A stretch of 34,378 bases of DNA. It comes from an uncultured Armatimonadota bacterium (GTDB lineage Bacteria; Armatimonadota; Armatimonadia; Armatimonadales; Armatimonadaceae). Location of the stretch: contig CAIVZM010000068.1 in NCBI GenBank assembly GCA_903910385.1, positions 1-34,378 on the forward strand, given 5' to 3'. The notes under the pieces were generated by a model. The model was not told the DNA's origin. It ran no database searches and saw nothing but the letters and a program-made list of their open reading frames with translations. The position numbers and the translations under genes are program-made. This document shows positions 18,396 through 24,471 of the stretch, piece by piece. Every line of letters starts with the position of its first letter. Within the stretch, counting starts at the first letter, position 1.

Positions 18396-19406
18396 TTGGT
18401 TCATTTAGCGGTTAACCGGGATACACTGAAACTAGAAAATATTAAACCAGTTGGATTGACGATGTATATATGGGGGCGCACAGCTATAACTATTACGTCG
18501 TCAACAATGGCGCAAACGACCGTGTTTTATCTGCCCGACGAGCGGGGCAACACGGCGATGCGTCTGGACAGGAACGGCGTGATTTTGTCCGCCCATGTCA
18601 CGGACGCCTTTGGAGCGACCAAGACCAGCGATTATGTCGGTTCCTCGTCGGACGATCCGTTTGCTGGCTTTGGCGGTTCACTGGGTTATATGCGCGAGTC
18701 CGGTCTTGATTTGTACCGTTGCGGCTTGCGCTTTTACGATGTCGCCAATGCCCGCTGGCTGACAAGAGACCCCATCGGATATGACGGAGGGCAAAACCTC
18801 TACGGATATGTCTCCGGTAACCCTGTCATGGGCGCGGATCCTTTCGGGACGCAAGACCAGACGAACAGCGTCACTAACGCCAGCGGAATGCGAACGCAAC
18901 TCTCTATCCTGCGAGAGACAGATTCCACCCCGATTCGGCTCGGAGATGCCTCAAGAATCATCGGAATAACGGCGGCGCAACAGTGGTGGCAACGGTGGGG
19001 GCAATGGACAAATCAGCAATGGCAACGATTCGGAAACAACCTCTCCAATATCTTCGGTGGAGGAGGTAGTAGCGGTGGTGGGGCGCCTCAGCGGTTATTC
19101 ACTTCCAAAGACCCCCTCGTTGCCCAAGTAGCTAATGCGATTGAAAGCCGCTATCCTGGTCATGTTATCGGCGTGAATCAGAAGATAGGTGGACAGGAGA
19201 TTGACATAGTACTACGGAATGCGTTAATTGAAGTGAAACAGGGAGGGGCAGGCTTGACGAGTCAAGTCACAGCCCGATTGAATCTAGGTTACCCGGTACT
19301 TGCTTACTCACCAAAGCTTGGTGGGCAAGCGATTCAGGGAATAAACAATTGCGGCGGCATCGGCACGAATGACCTCAAACTGCTTATTGATGTGGTAAAA
19401 CCTTGA
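18396..19406 (+). CDS. Truncated Rhs-core protein with PD-(D/E)XK nuclease-like toxin tip (tip 1)
   Basis: The ORF encodes 336 aa. Residues about 42-150 are the Rhs-associated core (TTVFYLPDERGNTAMRLDRNG ... SGLDLYRCGLRFYDVANARWLTRDPIGYDGGQNLYGYVSGNPVMGADPFG). There is no signal peptide and there are none of the many YD repeats of a full Rhs protein, so this is an orphan C-terminal piece. The tip (about 151-336) has a Gly/Ser linker and then E250, D270 (GGQEIDIV) and E279-x-K281 (LIEVK), the spacing of a restriction-endonuclease-fold nuclease. Such tips are DNA- or RNA-cutting toxins freed from the Rhs shell. The TTG start at 18396 is only formal; an ATG at 18462 is also possible. Expression is doubtful without a parent gene. 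Confidence 0.72.
   Translation: MVHLAVNRDTLKLENIKPVGLTMYIWGRTAITITSSTMAQTTVFYLPDERGNTAMRLDRNGVILSAHVTDAFGATKTSDYVGSSSDDPFAGFGGSLGYMRESGLDLYRCGLRFYDVANARWLTRDPIGYDGGQNLYGYVSGNPVMGADPFGTQDQTNSVTNASGMRTQLSILRETDSTPIRLGDASRIIGITAAQQWWQRWGQWTNQQWQRFGNNLSNIFGGGGSSGGGAPQRLFTSKDPLVAQVANAIESRYPGHVIGVNQKIGGQEIDIVLRNALIEVKQGGAGLTSQVTARLNLGYPVLAYSPKLGGQAIQGINNCGGIGTNDLKLLIDVVKP
18515..18847 (+). repeat. Rhs core repeat, copy 1
   Basis: About 333 bp that recur almost unchanged at 21462, 22874 and, shortened, at 24195. The copy runs from the AACGACCGTGTTTTAT segment to the DPFG codons, where the tip begins. Confidence 0.9.
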
Positions 19407-19474: not shown

Positions 19475-19885
19475 ATGCTGGTTCTCTCTTCCCGTATTGG
19501 GATACCCAGGGCGAGCGTGAATGACCTTTACAACGCCTTAAAATCCGCCACGAATAAATCCTCTCATCATGGGTGCTTTGTGGTGGATTTCATTGACCGC
19601 CATCAACTCGGGCAAGCTAACGATGCTCTATCTTTACTCGAATCTTGCCGATGGATACCAGAGACGGACAACGAAGGAAATATTACGGAACTGAACTTTG
19701 CAGGTGAAAAATTAGGAGATGAAGATTGCCTGTTTGCCACTATCGCCCCTTATGTAAAGTCAGGCAGCTATATTATCGTCGCACTGGATAACGGCGCTCT
19801 ATGGCGTTGGCTTTTTGAAGATGGCGCGGTCGTCAAGCAAATCGGGAGACCTGTTTTCGACGGTCACGAAAGCGGCGTAGGTTAA
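19475..19885 (+). CDS. Hypothetical protein, candidate immunity protein for the nuclease tip
   Basis: The protein has 136 aa, is soluble and acidic, and has no signal peptide. I do not recognise a named family with certainty. The C-terminal half (CLFATIAPYVKSGSYIIVALDNGALWRWLFEDG) has the look of small immunity-type proteins with a Gly-Ser-Tyr-Ile / Trp-Arg-Trp pattern. It lies 68 bp after the nuclease tip on the same strand, the usual place for the cognate immunity gene. An AGAGG purine run is too far upstream (about 20 nt) to be its ribosome site, which fits a leaderless transcript. Confidence 0.6.
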   Translation: MLVLSSRIGIPRASVNDLYNALKSATNKSSHHGCFVVDFIDRHQLGQANDALSLLESCRWIPETDNEGNITELNFAGEKLGDEDCLFATIAPYVKSGSYIIVALDNGALWRWLFEDGAVVKQIGRPVFDGHESGVG

Positions 19886-19954: not shown

Positions 19955-20341
19955 ATGGAAAGCGATGTTACGGGCAAAGTGACCCGGAAATATCGGATTG
20001 TTCTTGCGGTTGTCTTAACGCTGGGTTTGACCCTCTACGTCGCGTTTGCCTTCGCCATGAAAAGCGTCGCGGAAGCCCAATACGCTATCAAAATTGAGCA
20101 GGACTATCTGCCCAACCGGCGCCATGATACCGGTCAATGGCCCGACTCTCTTGACGGAATCGAAGATTATATGCGTTTGCACGGATACGGGTATGATTAC
20201 CTGAAAATGACTCGTGACGCCCGCCCCAGCATTATCGTCACCTACCAGGACCGCGAGGAGATGCGGGGAGAAATAGTGTTCTCGTGGAGGTGGTTACCTC
20301 AAGGCCGCCTGCCGTTCGTCTCGCGGAGGGACTACTACTAA
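19955..20341 (+). CDS. Small membrane-anchored hypothetical protein
   Basis: The protein has 128 aa with one N-terminal transmembrane helix (about residues 14-36, IVLAVVLTLGLTLYVAFAFAM). The soluble remainder, rich in Tyr, Asp and Arg (QWPDSLDGIEDYMRLHGYGYDYL, then IVTYQDREEMRGEIVFSWRW), would face the periplasm if the helix inserts as a standard N-in anchor. I recognise no family. A TAATAT hexamer ends 10 nt before the ATG. It lies between immunity-type genes and could be another immunity protein or a leftover of a lost tip. Confidence 0.5.
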   Translation: MESDVTGKVTRKYRIVLAVVLTLGLTLYVAFAFAMKSVAEAQYAIKIEQDYLPNRRHDTGQWPDSLDGIEDYMRLHGYGYDYLKMTRDARPSIIVTYQDREEMRGEIVFSWRWLPQGRLPFVSRRDYY

Positions 20342-20423: not shown

Positions 20424-20711
20424 ATGGATAACGTCAAGTATCTTGAGCAGTGGTATGCTTCCCGTTGTAACGGGGATTGGGAACATGGTTTTGGAATTCA
20501 ACTTCAAACCCTGGATAATCCAGGTTGGTGGCTCAGGATAGATTTGAACGGGACGCCATGGGAGGATGCCTTCCTGCCGACGGTGCGGCTTGACCGGGGA
20601 GATCGGGACTGGATGAACTATAAAATTGAGGGTGGTTTATTTGAGGCTTCGGGAAGCGTGGACAAACTGGATGAAATGATTCAAGCATTTCGGAATTTCG
20701 TCGAGAGATGA
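20424..20711 (+). CDS. Imm53-family immunity protein (orphan)
   Basis: The protein has 95 aa. The pattern LEQWYASRCNGDWEHGFGIQLQTLDNPGWWLRIDLNGT, followed by DWMNYKIEGGLFEASGSVDKLDEMIQAFRNFVE, is what I know of the Imm53 family, small soluble antidotes in polymorphic-toxin loci. The family usually follows a toxin tip directly. Here no tip precedes it, only two other small genes, while a decayed Rhs core follows. It may protect against a toxin of neighbouring cells, or its toxin has been lost. No clear ribosome-binding site is seen. Confidence 0.82.
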   Translation: MDNVKYLEQWYASRCNGDWEHGFGIQLQTLDNPGWWLRIDLNGTPWEDAFLPTVRLDRGDRDWMNYKIEGGLFEASGSVDKLDEMIQAFRNFVER

Positions 20712-21440: not shown

Positions 21441-21461
21441 CAGCCGGTTAGGCGAGCGCTA

Positions 21462-21788
21462 TTTTATGCCTGCCCGACGAGCGGGGCAATACGGCGATGC
21501 GTCTGGACAGGAACGGCGTGATTCTGTCCGCTCATGTTACGGACGCCTTTGGAGCGACCAAAACCAGCGACTATGTCGGTTCCTCAACGGACGACCCGTT
21601 TGCCGGCTTTGGCGGTTCACTGGGTTATAGTCGAGAGTCAGGACTTGATTTGTACCGATGCGGCTTACGCTTCTACGATGTCGCCAACGCCCGCTGGCTG
21701 ACACGAGACCCCATCGGATACGGCGGGGGGCAAAACCTCTACGGATATGTCTCCGGTAACCCTGTCATGGGAAGCGACCCACTTGGGC
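21462..21788 (+). repeat. Rhs core repeat, copy 2
   Basis: Near-identical to copies 1 and 3. Two extra bases (GC, 21468-21469) after TTTTAT put the first codons out of frame, so the upstream junction is broken. The copy ends at the DPLG codons. Confidence 0.9.
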
Positions 21789-22300
21789 TTTATCCTCCTG
21801 CTACGGTGAACGAATACTTAAATCAGTTAGGCGACGGCATTAATCAGGAGATAAGTAGTTACTTCTCAGGCTTCACACGAAACACCAGTTTCCTATCAGA
21901 TTGGTTTTTCGGGTTAGGTCAGGACCACAGGAGATATCTTGATCGTAGTCCCGAGAGTTTAGAGTTACGGAACTCGCTCGCAGGAGAACAGATTGCGTTC
22001 GCTATCGCGCAGGGAAAAAATAGTGGGAGCATAAGGACTTTTTCCGCTTTCATCAATTCGATCCAGCAGCCAGGAAACGCGACTCAGTTTCAAGTAGGAG
22101 CTTTTCGTTGGCAACGTATTGATGAAAACGGTCACATATTTGTACGTGCATATAACGTCGCATCATTTGACTCGTTCTGGTATCATATACCCGGCTTGTT
22201 TGGGCAGAATCCCCTTTGGAACGGGACTTTTGATCGTGCCCGTTGTGGCTTCGGCCCCAATGGCAATGTTTATCAGGAATTCCAGTGGACGATACGTTGA
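21497..22300 (+). CDS. Truncated Rhs-core protein with unrecognised toxin tip (tip 2)
   Basis: The ORF encodes 267 aa. Residues 1-97 are Rhs core (MRLDRNG to GSDPLGL). The tip (98-267) matches nothing I can name. It has an amphipathic first part (VNEYLNQLGDGINQEISSYFSGF), a helical EQIAFAIAQGKNSGSIRTFSAFINSIQQ stretch, and an aromatic beta-rich end (FQVGAFRWQRIDENGHIFVRAYNVASFDSFWYHIPGLFG ... GNVYQEFQWTIR). No metal-cluster or known catalytic motif stands out. The stop overlaps a TTG that opens the ankyrin gene, typical of a toxin-immunity pair. The Met is an internal one; the 5' part was lost by recombination. Confidence 0.68.
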   Translation: MRLDRNGVILSAHVTDAFGATKTSDYVGSSTDDPFAGFGGSLGYSRESGLDLYRCGLRFYDVANARWLTRDPIGYGGGQNLYGYVSGNPVMGSDPLGLYPPATVNEYLNQLGDGINQEISSYFSGFTRNTSFLSDWFFGLGQDHRRYLDRSPESLELRNSLAGEQIAFAIAQGKNSGSIRTFSAFINSIQQPGNATQFQVGAFRWQRIDENGHIFVRAYNVASFDSFWYHIPGLFGQNPLWNGTFDRARCGFGPNGNVYQEFQWTIR

Positions 22301-22779
22301 CAACACCAATTCAGAAATCTCATAAGCGGAAGATAAGTGCTGTAATCGCTCTCATTGTAGCAGCGGCGTTATCGTTCGGGTACGTCGTACTTGCGGGAAT
22401 TCTTTTGATCCGCGCTGCTGAACTGGGTCAATCCGATTCCGTAAAACGACTGTTGCAAATGGGCGCTTCCGTGAATGCGGTTGACCCTGAACTGCGCTCA
22501 ACCCCGTTAATTGCCGCCTCAGAAAACGGGCATAATGACGTTGTTCTGATTTTATTATCTCAAGGAGCTAATGCTAACCAACAAGACGCCCATGGCGACA
22601 CGGCATTAATGCTCGCTTCAGCGAATGGTTATATGCCCGTGGTCCAATCTCTGATAAACCATGGGGCGAATCCTGAAATGAAAAACCAGGATGGCGAAAC
22701 TACCCTGGATTTGGCGAAGCAAGGAAACTACGCCGACATAGTCGCCTACCTGAATCGCCACCGCTATCGCCGGGAATAG
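22297..22779 (+). CDS. Membrane-anchored ankyrin-repeat protein, candidate immunity protein for tip 2
   Basis: The protein has 160 aa from the TTG at 22297, which overlaps the tip-2 stop (TTGA). A basic start (KSHKRK) is followed by one transmembrane helix (about 13-33, ISAVIALIVAAALSFGYVVLAGIL). Then come about four ankyrin repeats: LIRAAELGQSDSVKRLLQMGASVNAVD, TPLIAASENGHNDVVLILLSQGANANQQD, TALMLASANGYMPVVQSLINHGANPEMKN and a short last one. Ankyrin proteins are known as immunity proteins in polymorphic-toxin loci. The helix suggests that it meets its toxin at or beyond the membrane. An upstream in-frame ATG (22243) lies within the toxin gene and is less likely. Confidence 0.75.
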   Translation: MTTPIQKSHKRKISAVIALIVAAALSFGYVVLAGILLIRAAELGQSDSVKRLLQMGASVNAVDPELRSTPLIAASENGHNDVVLILLSQGANANQQDAHGDTALMLASANGYMPVVQSLINHGANPEMKNQDGETTLDLAKQGNYADIVAYLNRHRYRRE

Positions 22780-22832: not shown

Positions 22833-23768
22833 GTGAACGGAACAACCCCACTGGTTCCTCTGGCGACGACCACAACGACCGTGTTTTATCTGCCCGACGA
22901 GCGGGGCAACACGGCGATGCGTCTGGACAGGAACGGCGCGATTTTGTCCTCTCATGTCACGGACGCCTTTGGAGCGACCAAAACCAGCGACTATGTCGGT
23001 TCCTCAACGGACGACCCGTTTGCCGGCTTTGGCGGTTCACTCGGTTATAGTCGAGAGTCAGGTCTTGATTTGTACCGATGCGGTTTGCGCTTCTACGATG
23101 TCGCCAATGCCCGCTGGCTGACACGAGACCCCATCGGATACGGCGGGGGGCAAAACCTCTACGGATATGTGTCGGGTAATCCGGTCATGGCGGTTGACCC
23201 GGCAGGTATGGATGCGGGTTGGGCTCGCAGTGGTCAAGGACCTTATGGTGACCAACACGTAGTGGGCGGAAGACTTTTCGACCATACGGATGCCATAATC
23301 GAAATCTTCGGTGGACCAAAACTTCCGGGAACAGGAATCGGTAGCCCTGCATGGAACCAAGCCAATTCTAATGTGGAGCAGATGGCCCATACGATGGGAT
23401 GGATCTATGCTTACGTAGCTCCGCGACAACCGGGCGTTAGGTCGACTGGAATAGGAGATCCCTCTCTAAACAGTGATGGGTTTATCGAACTATATCACTA
23501 CACCAGTGGTAAAGCGGCTCAACAAATTACCCAAACAGAAGTACTCTGCGGAAGCAAGGGATATGGCATGTGGCTATGGCGCAAAGGCGATGTCTATTTG
23601 ACTACTGATCCAAAGGCGAGCACCTTTAAATTAACTATAATGTATGGTCTATCGTTCGATAAACAAGAGGCTATTATTCCAGTTCGAGTTCCTGCGGGCG
23701 AAGTGATCAAGCGTCCTGGCGGAATCCGAATTATACCTGGCCCGATCAGCACAAAAAGAGGATATTGA
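22833..23768 (+). CDS. Truncated Rhs-core protein with ADP-ribosyltransferase HYD1-like toxin tip (tip 3)
   Basis: The ORF encodes 311 aa. Residues about 16-125 are Rhs core; the frame is open upstream to about 22780 (DNPPPAPPSDTVKASVPAVNG), so this copy keeps slightly more parent sequence than the others. The tip (126-311) ends with LYHYTSGKAAQQI (H222-Y-T), a glycine-rich loop and GDVYLTTDP (252-260), then alternating strands. This HYT ... YLTTDP pattern is that of HYD1-type ADP-ribosyltransferase toxins, which modify a target with NAD. The matching downstream glutamate is not certain (perhaps E279 or E290). The stop shares a base with the next start (TGATG). Confidence 0.7.
   Translation: MNGTTPLVPLATTTTTVFYLPDERGNTAMRLDRNGAILSSHVTDAFGATKTSDYVGSSTDDPFAGFGGSLGYSRESGLDLYRCGLRFYDVANARWLTRDPIGYGGGQNLYGYVSGNPVMAVDPAGMDAGWARSGQGPYGDQHVVGGRLFDHTDAIIEIFGGPKLPGTGIGSPAWNQANSNVEQMAHTMGWIYAYVAPRQPGVRSTGIGDPSLNSDGFIELYHYTSGKAAQQITQTEVLCGSKGYGMWLWRKGDVYLTTDPKASTFKLTIMYGLSFDKQEAIIPVRVPAGEVIKRPGGIRIIPGPISTKRGY
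22874..23206 (+). repeat. Rhs core repeat, copy 3
   Basis: Near-identical to copies 1 and 2 from AACGACCGTGTTTTAT to the GNPVM codons. The last 30 bases (GTGTCGGGTAATCCG) are more divergent, placing the recombination edge close to the DPxG motif. Confidence 0.9.
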
Positions 23769-24001
23769 TGAACCGAGAACGATGGCTTGACTTTTGGGAT
23801 TTTACCTTAGTGTTAACGGCGTGGGGTCTGGTACTGGGCGCACCAGTCGCGCTTTTTGTGGTCTTGCGTTCTCTAGGGATTTCGACATTATTGTGTTCTA
23901 TTCCCTCGCTGGCATTGTTGATTGTTCTGTTTTTTACAGCGGAATTTATCCATTCGATGCTGAAACGGTGGTTTGGCGCAGGAAACCGTTCCGTTCAATA
24001 G
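23768..24001 (+). CDS. Two-helix membrane protein, candidate immunity protein for tip 3
   Basis: The protein has 77 aa, of which about 40 lie in two transmembrane helices (FTLVLTAWGLVLGAPVALFVVL and TLLCSIPSLALLIVLFFTAEFI), with a basic tail. The ATG at 23768 uses the last base of the tip-3 stop (TGATG), so the two are translationally coupled, the arrangement of toxin and immunity genes. No family is recognised. An ADP-ribosyltransferase acting in the cytoplasm would normally be met by a soluble protein, so a membrane antidote would be unusual and the role remains a guess. Confidence 0.6.
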   Translation: MNRERWLDFWDFTLVLTAWGLVLGAPVALFVVLRSLGISTLLCSIPSLALLIVLFFTAEFIHSMLKRWFGAGNRSVQ

Positions 24002-24023: not shown

Positions 24024-24194
24024 CGCCAACAGGTAGCCCGTCAAGGTGACATAAAAGCTTGTTTGCGACTGGCGGCGCTGTACGAGCGTGACAACGCCGA
24101 TGAAAGCAATAATCGTGCCGTTTATTGGCGCAATCAAGCCGCATCGCTCAGCGCATCCGAGGCGAAAAAATCGGCAACATCGAATAAAAAGTAA
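24024..24194 (+). pseudogene. 3' remnant of a Sel1-like repeat protein
   Basis: With no start codon, the frame reads RQGDIKACLRLAALYERDNADESNNRAVYWRNQAASL and ends at a TAA (24192-24194). The GDxxAcxxLAxLYE...AxxWxxQAA pattern is a Sel1/TPR-like repeat end. The stop directly touches core repeat copy 4, so the piece was probably carried in as the 3' end of another immunity-type gene. Its 5' part is gone. Confidence 0.5.
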
Positions 24195-24471
24195 GTTACG
24201 GACGCCTTTGGAGCGACCAAAACCAGCGACTATGTCGGTTCCTCAACGGACGACCCGTTTGCCGGCTTTGGCGGTTCACTGGGCTATATGCGCGAGTCAG
24301 GACTTGATTTGTACCGGTGCGGTTTGCGCTTCTACGATGTCGCCAACACCCGCTGGTTGACAAGAGACCTTATCAGCTACGGCGGAGGGCAGAACCTCTA
24401 CGGGTATCTGCGGTACGGTCTGGAATTGTCCTTCGAGCCGGAGAGTCACCAGGGCGGCGAGTGGTAATTGT
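24195..24471 (+). pseudogene. Rhs core repeat, copy 4 (headless and tailless fragment)
   Basis: From 24195 the core reads TDAFGATKTSDYVGSSTDDPFAGFGGSLGYMRESGLDLYRCGLRFYDVANTRWLTRD and ends at QNLYGY near 24407. The first third of the other copies is missing. Changes such as LTRDLISYGGG indicate drift. After GYGY-like codons the frame continues into unrelated sequence (LRYGLELSFEPESHQGGEW) and stops near 24471. No toxin tip remains. Confidence 0.8.

Follow-up and report, generated by a model that had tools for sequence, protein, structure and literature searches.

Does a short Rhs ORF from an uncultured Armatimonadota bacterium, ending in a C-terminal tip of no recognized family and overlapping the gene for a membrane-anchored ankyrin protein, specify a toxin with its antidote, and where would such a toxin act? 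The ORF lies on contig CAIVZM010000068.1 of assembly GCA_903910385.1 (4.47 Mb in 84 contigs), the whole of which (positions 1–34,378) is the window analyzed here; we term its tip tip-2. The explanation we consider probable is that tip-2 serves as the C-terminal toxin in a polymorphic-toxin system of the Rhs type, that the overlapping TM–ankyrin gene specifies its cognate immunity protein, and that the site of toxin action would be the periplasm or the outer surface of the inner membrane.

The Rhs tip array and its stored cassettes

Rhs cores are present in most of the Armatimonadota genomes sampled. In the window, a repeat search revealed an array of short Rhs ORFs extending from 18396 to about 24600 and built on a common 300-bp core cassette, copies of which start at 18515, 21454 and 22874, with a degenerate one at 24113. 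Two of the three copies other than the tip-2 core bear other intact tips. The last copy (24113–24412; 70% in register over 300 nt, with an internal stop) is a remnant of another displaced tip. Within the tip-2 ORF (Table 1), residues 17–98 constitute the Rhs-associated core domain (Rhs_assc_core, TIGR03696, 3e-15) and the rest is the variable tip; as in Rhs polymorphic toxin systems, the core stands directly before the C-terminal tip. A prior sequence-only reading, which had opened the tip at 21787, came close to the boundary found here, and the overlap it described between the tip's stop codon and the TTG start of the ankyrin ORF is indeed present: the TGA at 22298–22300 and the TTG at 22297 share four nucleotides (TTGA, 22297–22300).

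Table 1. Features of the tip-2 locus, in window coordinates
Feature	Position	Strand	Evidence
Rhs core cassette copy, direct repeat family D1 (4 copies in window)	21454..21753	+	89% identical to reference copy at 18515; TIGR03696 3e-15
Orphan Rhs ORF of 267 aa comprising a short core and the variable tip; signal peptide and full Rhs shell absent	21497..22300	+	
Tip-2 toxin domain (putative), 171 aa, new family	21785..22297	+	Homologs, alignment of 12 tips, AF2 model, no family match
AF2 core of tip-2	21860-22297	+	pLDDT 80, pTM 0.75
Conserved tip motif N-x5-S-x3-H	22154..22186	+	N and S 12/12, H 9/12
Putative immunity protein, 160 aa, N-terminal TM helix and four ankyrin repeats	22297..22779	+	Ank_2 PF12796 2.5e-33
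TM helix, residues 20-38 of immunity protein	22354..22410	+	Kyte-Doolittle 2.55; charge +4 before, +1 after

The remainder of the array carries several further candidate components of such systems. The C-terminus of tip-1 (18396–19406) displays, by eye, a PD-(D/E)XK-like stretch (EIDIVLRNALIEVK, EIDIVL...LIEVK) with no Pfam match, and the next ORF (19475–19885), which shows no obvious TM segment, likely codes for a soluble immunity protein. Further downstream, a 128-aa protein (19955–20341) with an N-terminal TM helix, no significant family match and no adjoining tip is possibly the product of an orphan membrane-anchored immunity gene, and 20424–20711 codes for an Immunity protein 53 (PF15580, 3.8e-30), which, with no adjoining toxin, is an orphan immunity gene within the array. 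Within 22833–24001, an ELYHYTS stretch noted by eye in tip-3 recalls ADP-ribosyltransferase-like toxins, again with no Pfam match; its stop codon overlaps the ATG at 23768 of a mostly hydrophobic protein of 77 aa (23768–24001). The source genome has a second Rhs tip array with six tips (L051, G000:C50:1-16000): downstream of five of them lie genes for hydrophobic proteins, and the sixth, a His-rich tip resembling a nuclease, precedes an ankyrin protein that is soluble and lacks a TM helix.

Neither the window nor a search of all 84 contigs of the assembly yielded a complete secreted Rhs carrier for the tip-2 core. Since the sole other copy of this core recovered from the assembly belongs to a truncated Rhs (C45:5141-5429), the tip-2 pair in the window is a carrier-less orphan cassette, which is probably silent and stored within an array of displaced tips; the immunity gene may therefore be the only part of the pair in present use. 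A step further would be to read the arrangement as a dead remnant, a displaced cassette that is no longer made and has lost its function in toxin–immunity interactions. The orphan core lacking a signal peptide and shell, the failure to find a full-length parent in the assembly and the degenerate fourth core copy would all fit such decay; however, both ORFs are intact and retain the overlap as well as the residues conserved across the family, and the family persists intact elsewhere (in genome G013). We regard this as improbable, and it could hold for the window copy alone while leaving the function of the family unaffected.

The tip-2 family and its predicted fold

The absence of a nameable motif from the roughly 170 residues of the tip, as first read from the letters, is borne out at library scale: scans of the 171-aa tip and its relatives against Pfam, NCBIfam, PHROGs and PADLOC returned only chance-level matches. 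Thus, a known domain with a different standard antidote, which would have spoken against a new pair, was not encountered in these libraries. No significant match to the PDB was obtained either by sequence or by fold.

A first scan of genome contigs with the single tip sequence retrieved no relatives, and a scan with a four-row alignment recovered a tip from Edaphobacter aggregans (L034). In all, we found 11 relatives, with about 19–32% identity, in the Armatimonadota and the Acidobacteriota. The former include G013, G055 and G134, such that whole-genome searches place the tip in four of 291 genomes, counting the source genome; the latter contribute eight (Edaphobacter aggregans, L034/L047, and further loci L042–L046, L049 and L092). 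One match from the four-row scan (L035) proved to be a large polytopic membrane protein and was dropped as false, the weak matches L013–L019 and L027–L031 were set aside as noise (those inspected, L013 and L027–L031, lack the tip), and a fragment (L050) was left out of the family set. A tblastn search of the tip against plasmids and phages gave no match, and no relatives were found in viral contigs.

An Rhs core precedes the tip in all relatives but one, the exception being a core-less tip fragment (L047). In G013, the tip is borne by a complete Rhs protein of 1345 aa, whose N-terminus resembles a signal peptide as judged by eye. The alignment of the 12 tips displays four invariant columns, G80, N99, S105 and G132 (numbered from window position 21860), together with strongly conserved G18, Y26, A63, D125, Q139 and H109. 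As relatives from 10 other genomes show the conserved residues in the same order and likewise sit downstream of an Rhs core, and an eleventh genome has the core-less fragment, the tip ORF is no chance reading frame. Further, a pair of cysteines occupies fixed columns in all seven full-length acidobacterial tips and is absent from the window tip.

Structure prediction, proposed at the outset as a check on the tip, gave an AlphaFold2 model with a pLDDT of 53 from the 4-row alignment and, from the 12-row alignment, one with a pLDDT of 80 and a pTM of 0.75; this gain indicates that the 12-tip alignment describes one fold. The predicted structure is an α+β domain, the second half of which contains three long strands. 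Foldseek searches with the pLDDT-80 model recovered nothing from the PDB at E<1, and a single viral protein (A0A516LB07, 443 aa) with a probability of 0.84, a TM score of 0.48 and an E-value of 0.037. Matches obtained with the pLDDT-53 model were discarded as meaningless.

One specific identity was considered in this light, namely a divergent cytoplasmic RNase of the BECR fold, as in CdiA-CT of E. coli 3006 (6CP8). A profile of the 12 tips gives a weak match to 6CP8 over the last strands (stretches N-T-A..S and GPNGNV...WTI). However, its E-value of 0.99 is at chance level, the 50 structures ranked highest by Foldseek for the pLDDT-80 model include no BECR RNase, and counterparts of the active-site residues reported for the EC3006 toxin were not seen in the alignment. 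Moreover, the antidotes described below are anchored in 12 of 12 cases, eight as lipoproteins, and a lipoprotein immunity protein would be in the wrong compartment for a cytoplasmic RNase. With a chance-level profile match, no support from the fold and anchored antidotes, we rejected the BECR RNase identity, which we hold to be very unlikely. The favored alternative is that tip-2 represents a putative toxin family outside the libraries searched.

Putative anchored antidotes and the predicted site of action

In all 12 loci, the next gene on the same strand codes for a small protein (126–232 aa) with an N-terminal anchor, and the constant presence of an adjoining downstream partner is again a feature of Rhs polymorphic toxin systems. 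The start of the partner lies between −20 and +113 nt relative to the stop codon of the tip, with an overlap in nine of the 12; the start codons of two antidotes (L020 and L043) were picked by eye among alternatives. Three kinds of partner are discernible: a TM helix with ankyrin repeats (window, G013 and G134), a TM helix with a β domain (G055), and a lipoprotein with a β domain (the eight acidobacterial members). The domain in G055 (pattern GTY...L.LR.DG...G.W) is of the same kind as that in the eight lipoproteins; it belongs to no Pfam family, and its β nature was read from the sequence. The expectation that homologous tips would be followed by ankyrin genes was thus realized in two other genera (G013 and G134), but is not universal, holding for just three of the 12.

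The window partner corresponds to what had been described, one TM helix (residues 20–38) followed by about four ankyrin repeats (PF12796, 2.5e-33; the number four was counted by eye), and the distance between the helix and the first repeat is alike in the window, L022 and L021. Flanking charges of +4/+1 predict an N-in/C-out orientation for the window helix. The positive-inside pattern likewise points to N-in/C-out for the G134 anchor (+2/0) and is ambiguous for those of G013 and G055 (L022, +1/+2; L020, +1/+1). A reverse search with the TM–ankyrin profile was uninformative because ankyrin genes are too common in the Armatimonadota. A TM–ankyrin protein very like that of the window occurs in another genome from the source organism's taxonomic family (L103, G003:C273:7370-7771), where the contig ends just upstream and any tip is lost. 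Yet another comes after an Rhs tip that shows no relation to tip-2 (L110, 1240–1854, / L131; G183:C2, ~993400), indicating that TM–ankyrin proteins are not exclusive to the tip-2 family and may serve as immunity proteins for more than one toxin.

The eight acidobacterial antidotes bear lipobox-like motifs (VIGC, LAGC, LSGC, LVGC, FCSC, LAAC, LSSC and LTGC), which would place them outside the cytoplasm; we consider these predicted lipoprotein signals the strongest evidence for an extracytoplasmic antidote. In six of the eight, the number of cysteines past the anchor is exactly two, and the cysteine pairs of the acidobacterial tips and lipoproteins are consistent with disulfides formed in the periplasm. 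Compared with the 12 of 12 in the family, an anchored-type next gene follows only 4 of 23 other Rhs tips (Fisher p=2e-6), the control being Armatimonadota tips with a callable next gene and eight of the 12 family members being from the Acidobacteriota. This contrast lends support to the initial suggestion that a membrane-anchored partner hints at a toxin acting at or across the membrane. Since hydrophobic proteins also follow five of the eight other tips examined in the source genome, an anchor on its own is weak evidence locally. In that genome, the two tips that resemble nucleases, tip-1 and the His-rich tip of contig C50, stand in contrast to tip-2, their partners showing no obvious TM helix (tip-1) or none (C50).

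The same membrane location of every antidote would also suit a toxin that inserts into or permeabilizes the inner membrane, with the anchored immunity protein blocking insertion in the plane of the membrane, and CDI systems are known to include ionophore toxins that have their own immunity proteins (PMC11630599). Yet the AF2 core of the tip is a soluble-looking α+β domain rather than a five-helix bundle, its conserved N, S, H, Y, Q and G residues resemble an enzymatic or binding site more than a pore, and eight of the antidotes are lipoproteins with soluble β domains that are not embedded in the membrane. Accordingly, we find membrane insertion unlikely.

Instead, an antidote that is always tethered, in relatives from two phyla, suggests a toxin whose place of action in rival cells is immediately external to the inner membrane. 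From the pair, its conservation, the anchors and the predicted fold, we infer delivery, toxicity, binding of the ankyrin protein to the tip, and a periplasmic site of action. Under this proposal, the tip, when part of a full, secreted Rhs protein such as that of G013, would be delivered into a neighboring cell, to act within its periplasm or at the outer surface of its inner membrane, while an immunity protein stationed at that very site would shield the producer and its kin. In the window, the single N-in/C-out helix would display the ankyrin solenoid on the periplasmic side; in other lineages, a small β domain with a lipid or TM anchor would serve as the immunity protein. The obvious candidates for the target are the cell wall, its lipid-linked precursor or the membrane. 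More tentatively, and with somewhat less than even confidence, we propose that the toxin adopts a fold so far unrepresented in the PDB and strikes a target in the envelope from the outer side of the inner membrane, and that over evolution its antidote has been swapped between two unrelated scaffolds, the small β-domain lipoprotein and the TM-tethered ankyrin solenoid, at a fixed periplasmic membrane surface.

Toxin tips with new folds hint at bacterial targets so far unexploited, and the compartment of the antidote shows where to look for the target. The 12-member family yields a testable prediction, namely that the tip would be toxic only in the periplasm and rescued only by an exported antidote. 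It also offers what may be a natural case of antidote replacement at a constant location in little-studied phyla.

Comparison with known toxin–immunity systems

By its architecture, the locus is an Rhs polymorphic-toxin module, a kind of system that is already known. The catalogue of polymorphic toxins pairs an ankyrin immunity protein (Imm-ank) with Tox-AHH (Zhang et al. 2012, PMC3482391). The tip-2 locus shares with the Imm-ank Rhs systems the Rhs core, the variable C-terminal tip, the downstream ankyrin immunity gene and the occurrence of standalone tip cassettes; it differs in that tip-2 matches no catalogued family and in that its ankyrin partner is membrane-anchored.

The closest precedent for anchoring is Tle6/Tli of Enterobacter cloacae, where the lipoprotein ankyrin protein Tli neutralizes a periplasmic phospholipase (PMC10294624, PMC11470151). 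Both feature a membrane-anchored ankyrin immunity protein that faces the periplasm and is encoded with an effector acting from there, this being a prediction on the side of the window. In contrast, Tle is a lipase delivered by a T6SS and Tli combines six repeats with a lipoprotein signal, whereas the window pair has an Rhs carrier, a TM-helix anchor, four repeats and no recognized lipase domain. A Tle6-type phospholipase is not apparent in the tip from Pfam or NCBIfam lipase matches, or from Foldseek matches to solved structures at E<1. Given this precedent, the novelty suggested for the pair by the sequence-only reading stands for the tip family and not for anchored ankyrin immunity as such.

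A third comparison is offered by the Lipocone and novel colicin-M-like toxins described in 2025, which target the envelope and are countered by anchored immunity proteins of several folds (BamE-like, jelly roll and others; PMC12419801). The likeness lies in a presumed attack on lipid-linked targets in the envelope and in TM or lipoprotein immunity. On the toxin side the systems differ, as the tip has no sequence match in Pfam or the PDB and no Foldseek match to PDB structures such as colicin M; a colicin-M-like lipid II hydrolase was likewise not detected by Pfam, PDB sequences or PDB folds. Set against these systems, what is new here is a putative toxin family for which no structural relative was found, an anchored antidote that comes in two alternative forms, and the use of a TM helix in place of a lipid to anchor the ankyrin antidote.
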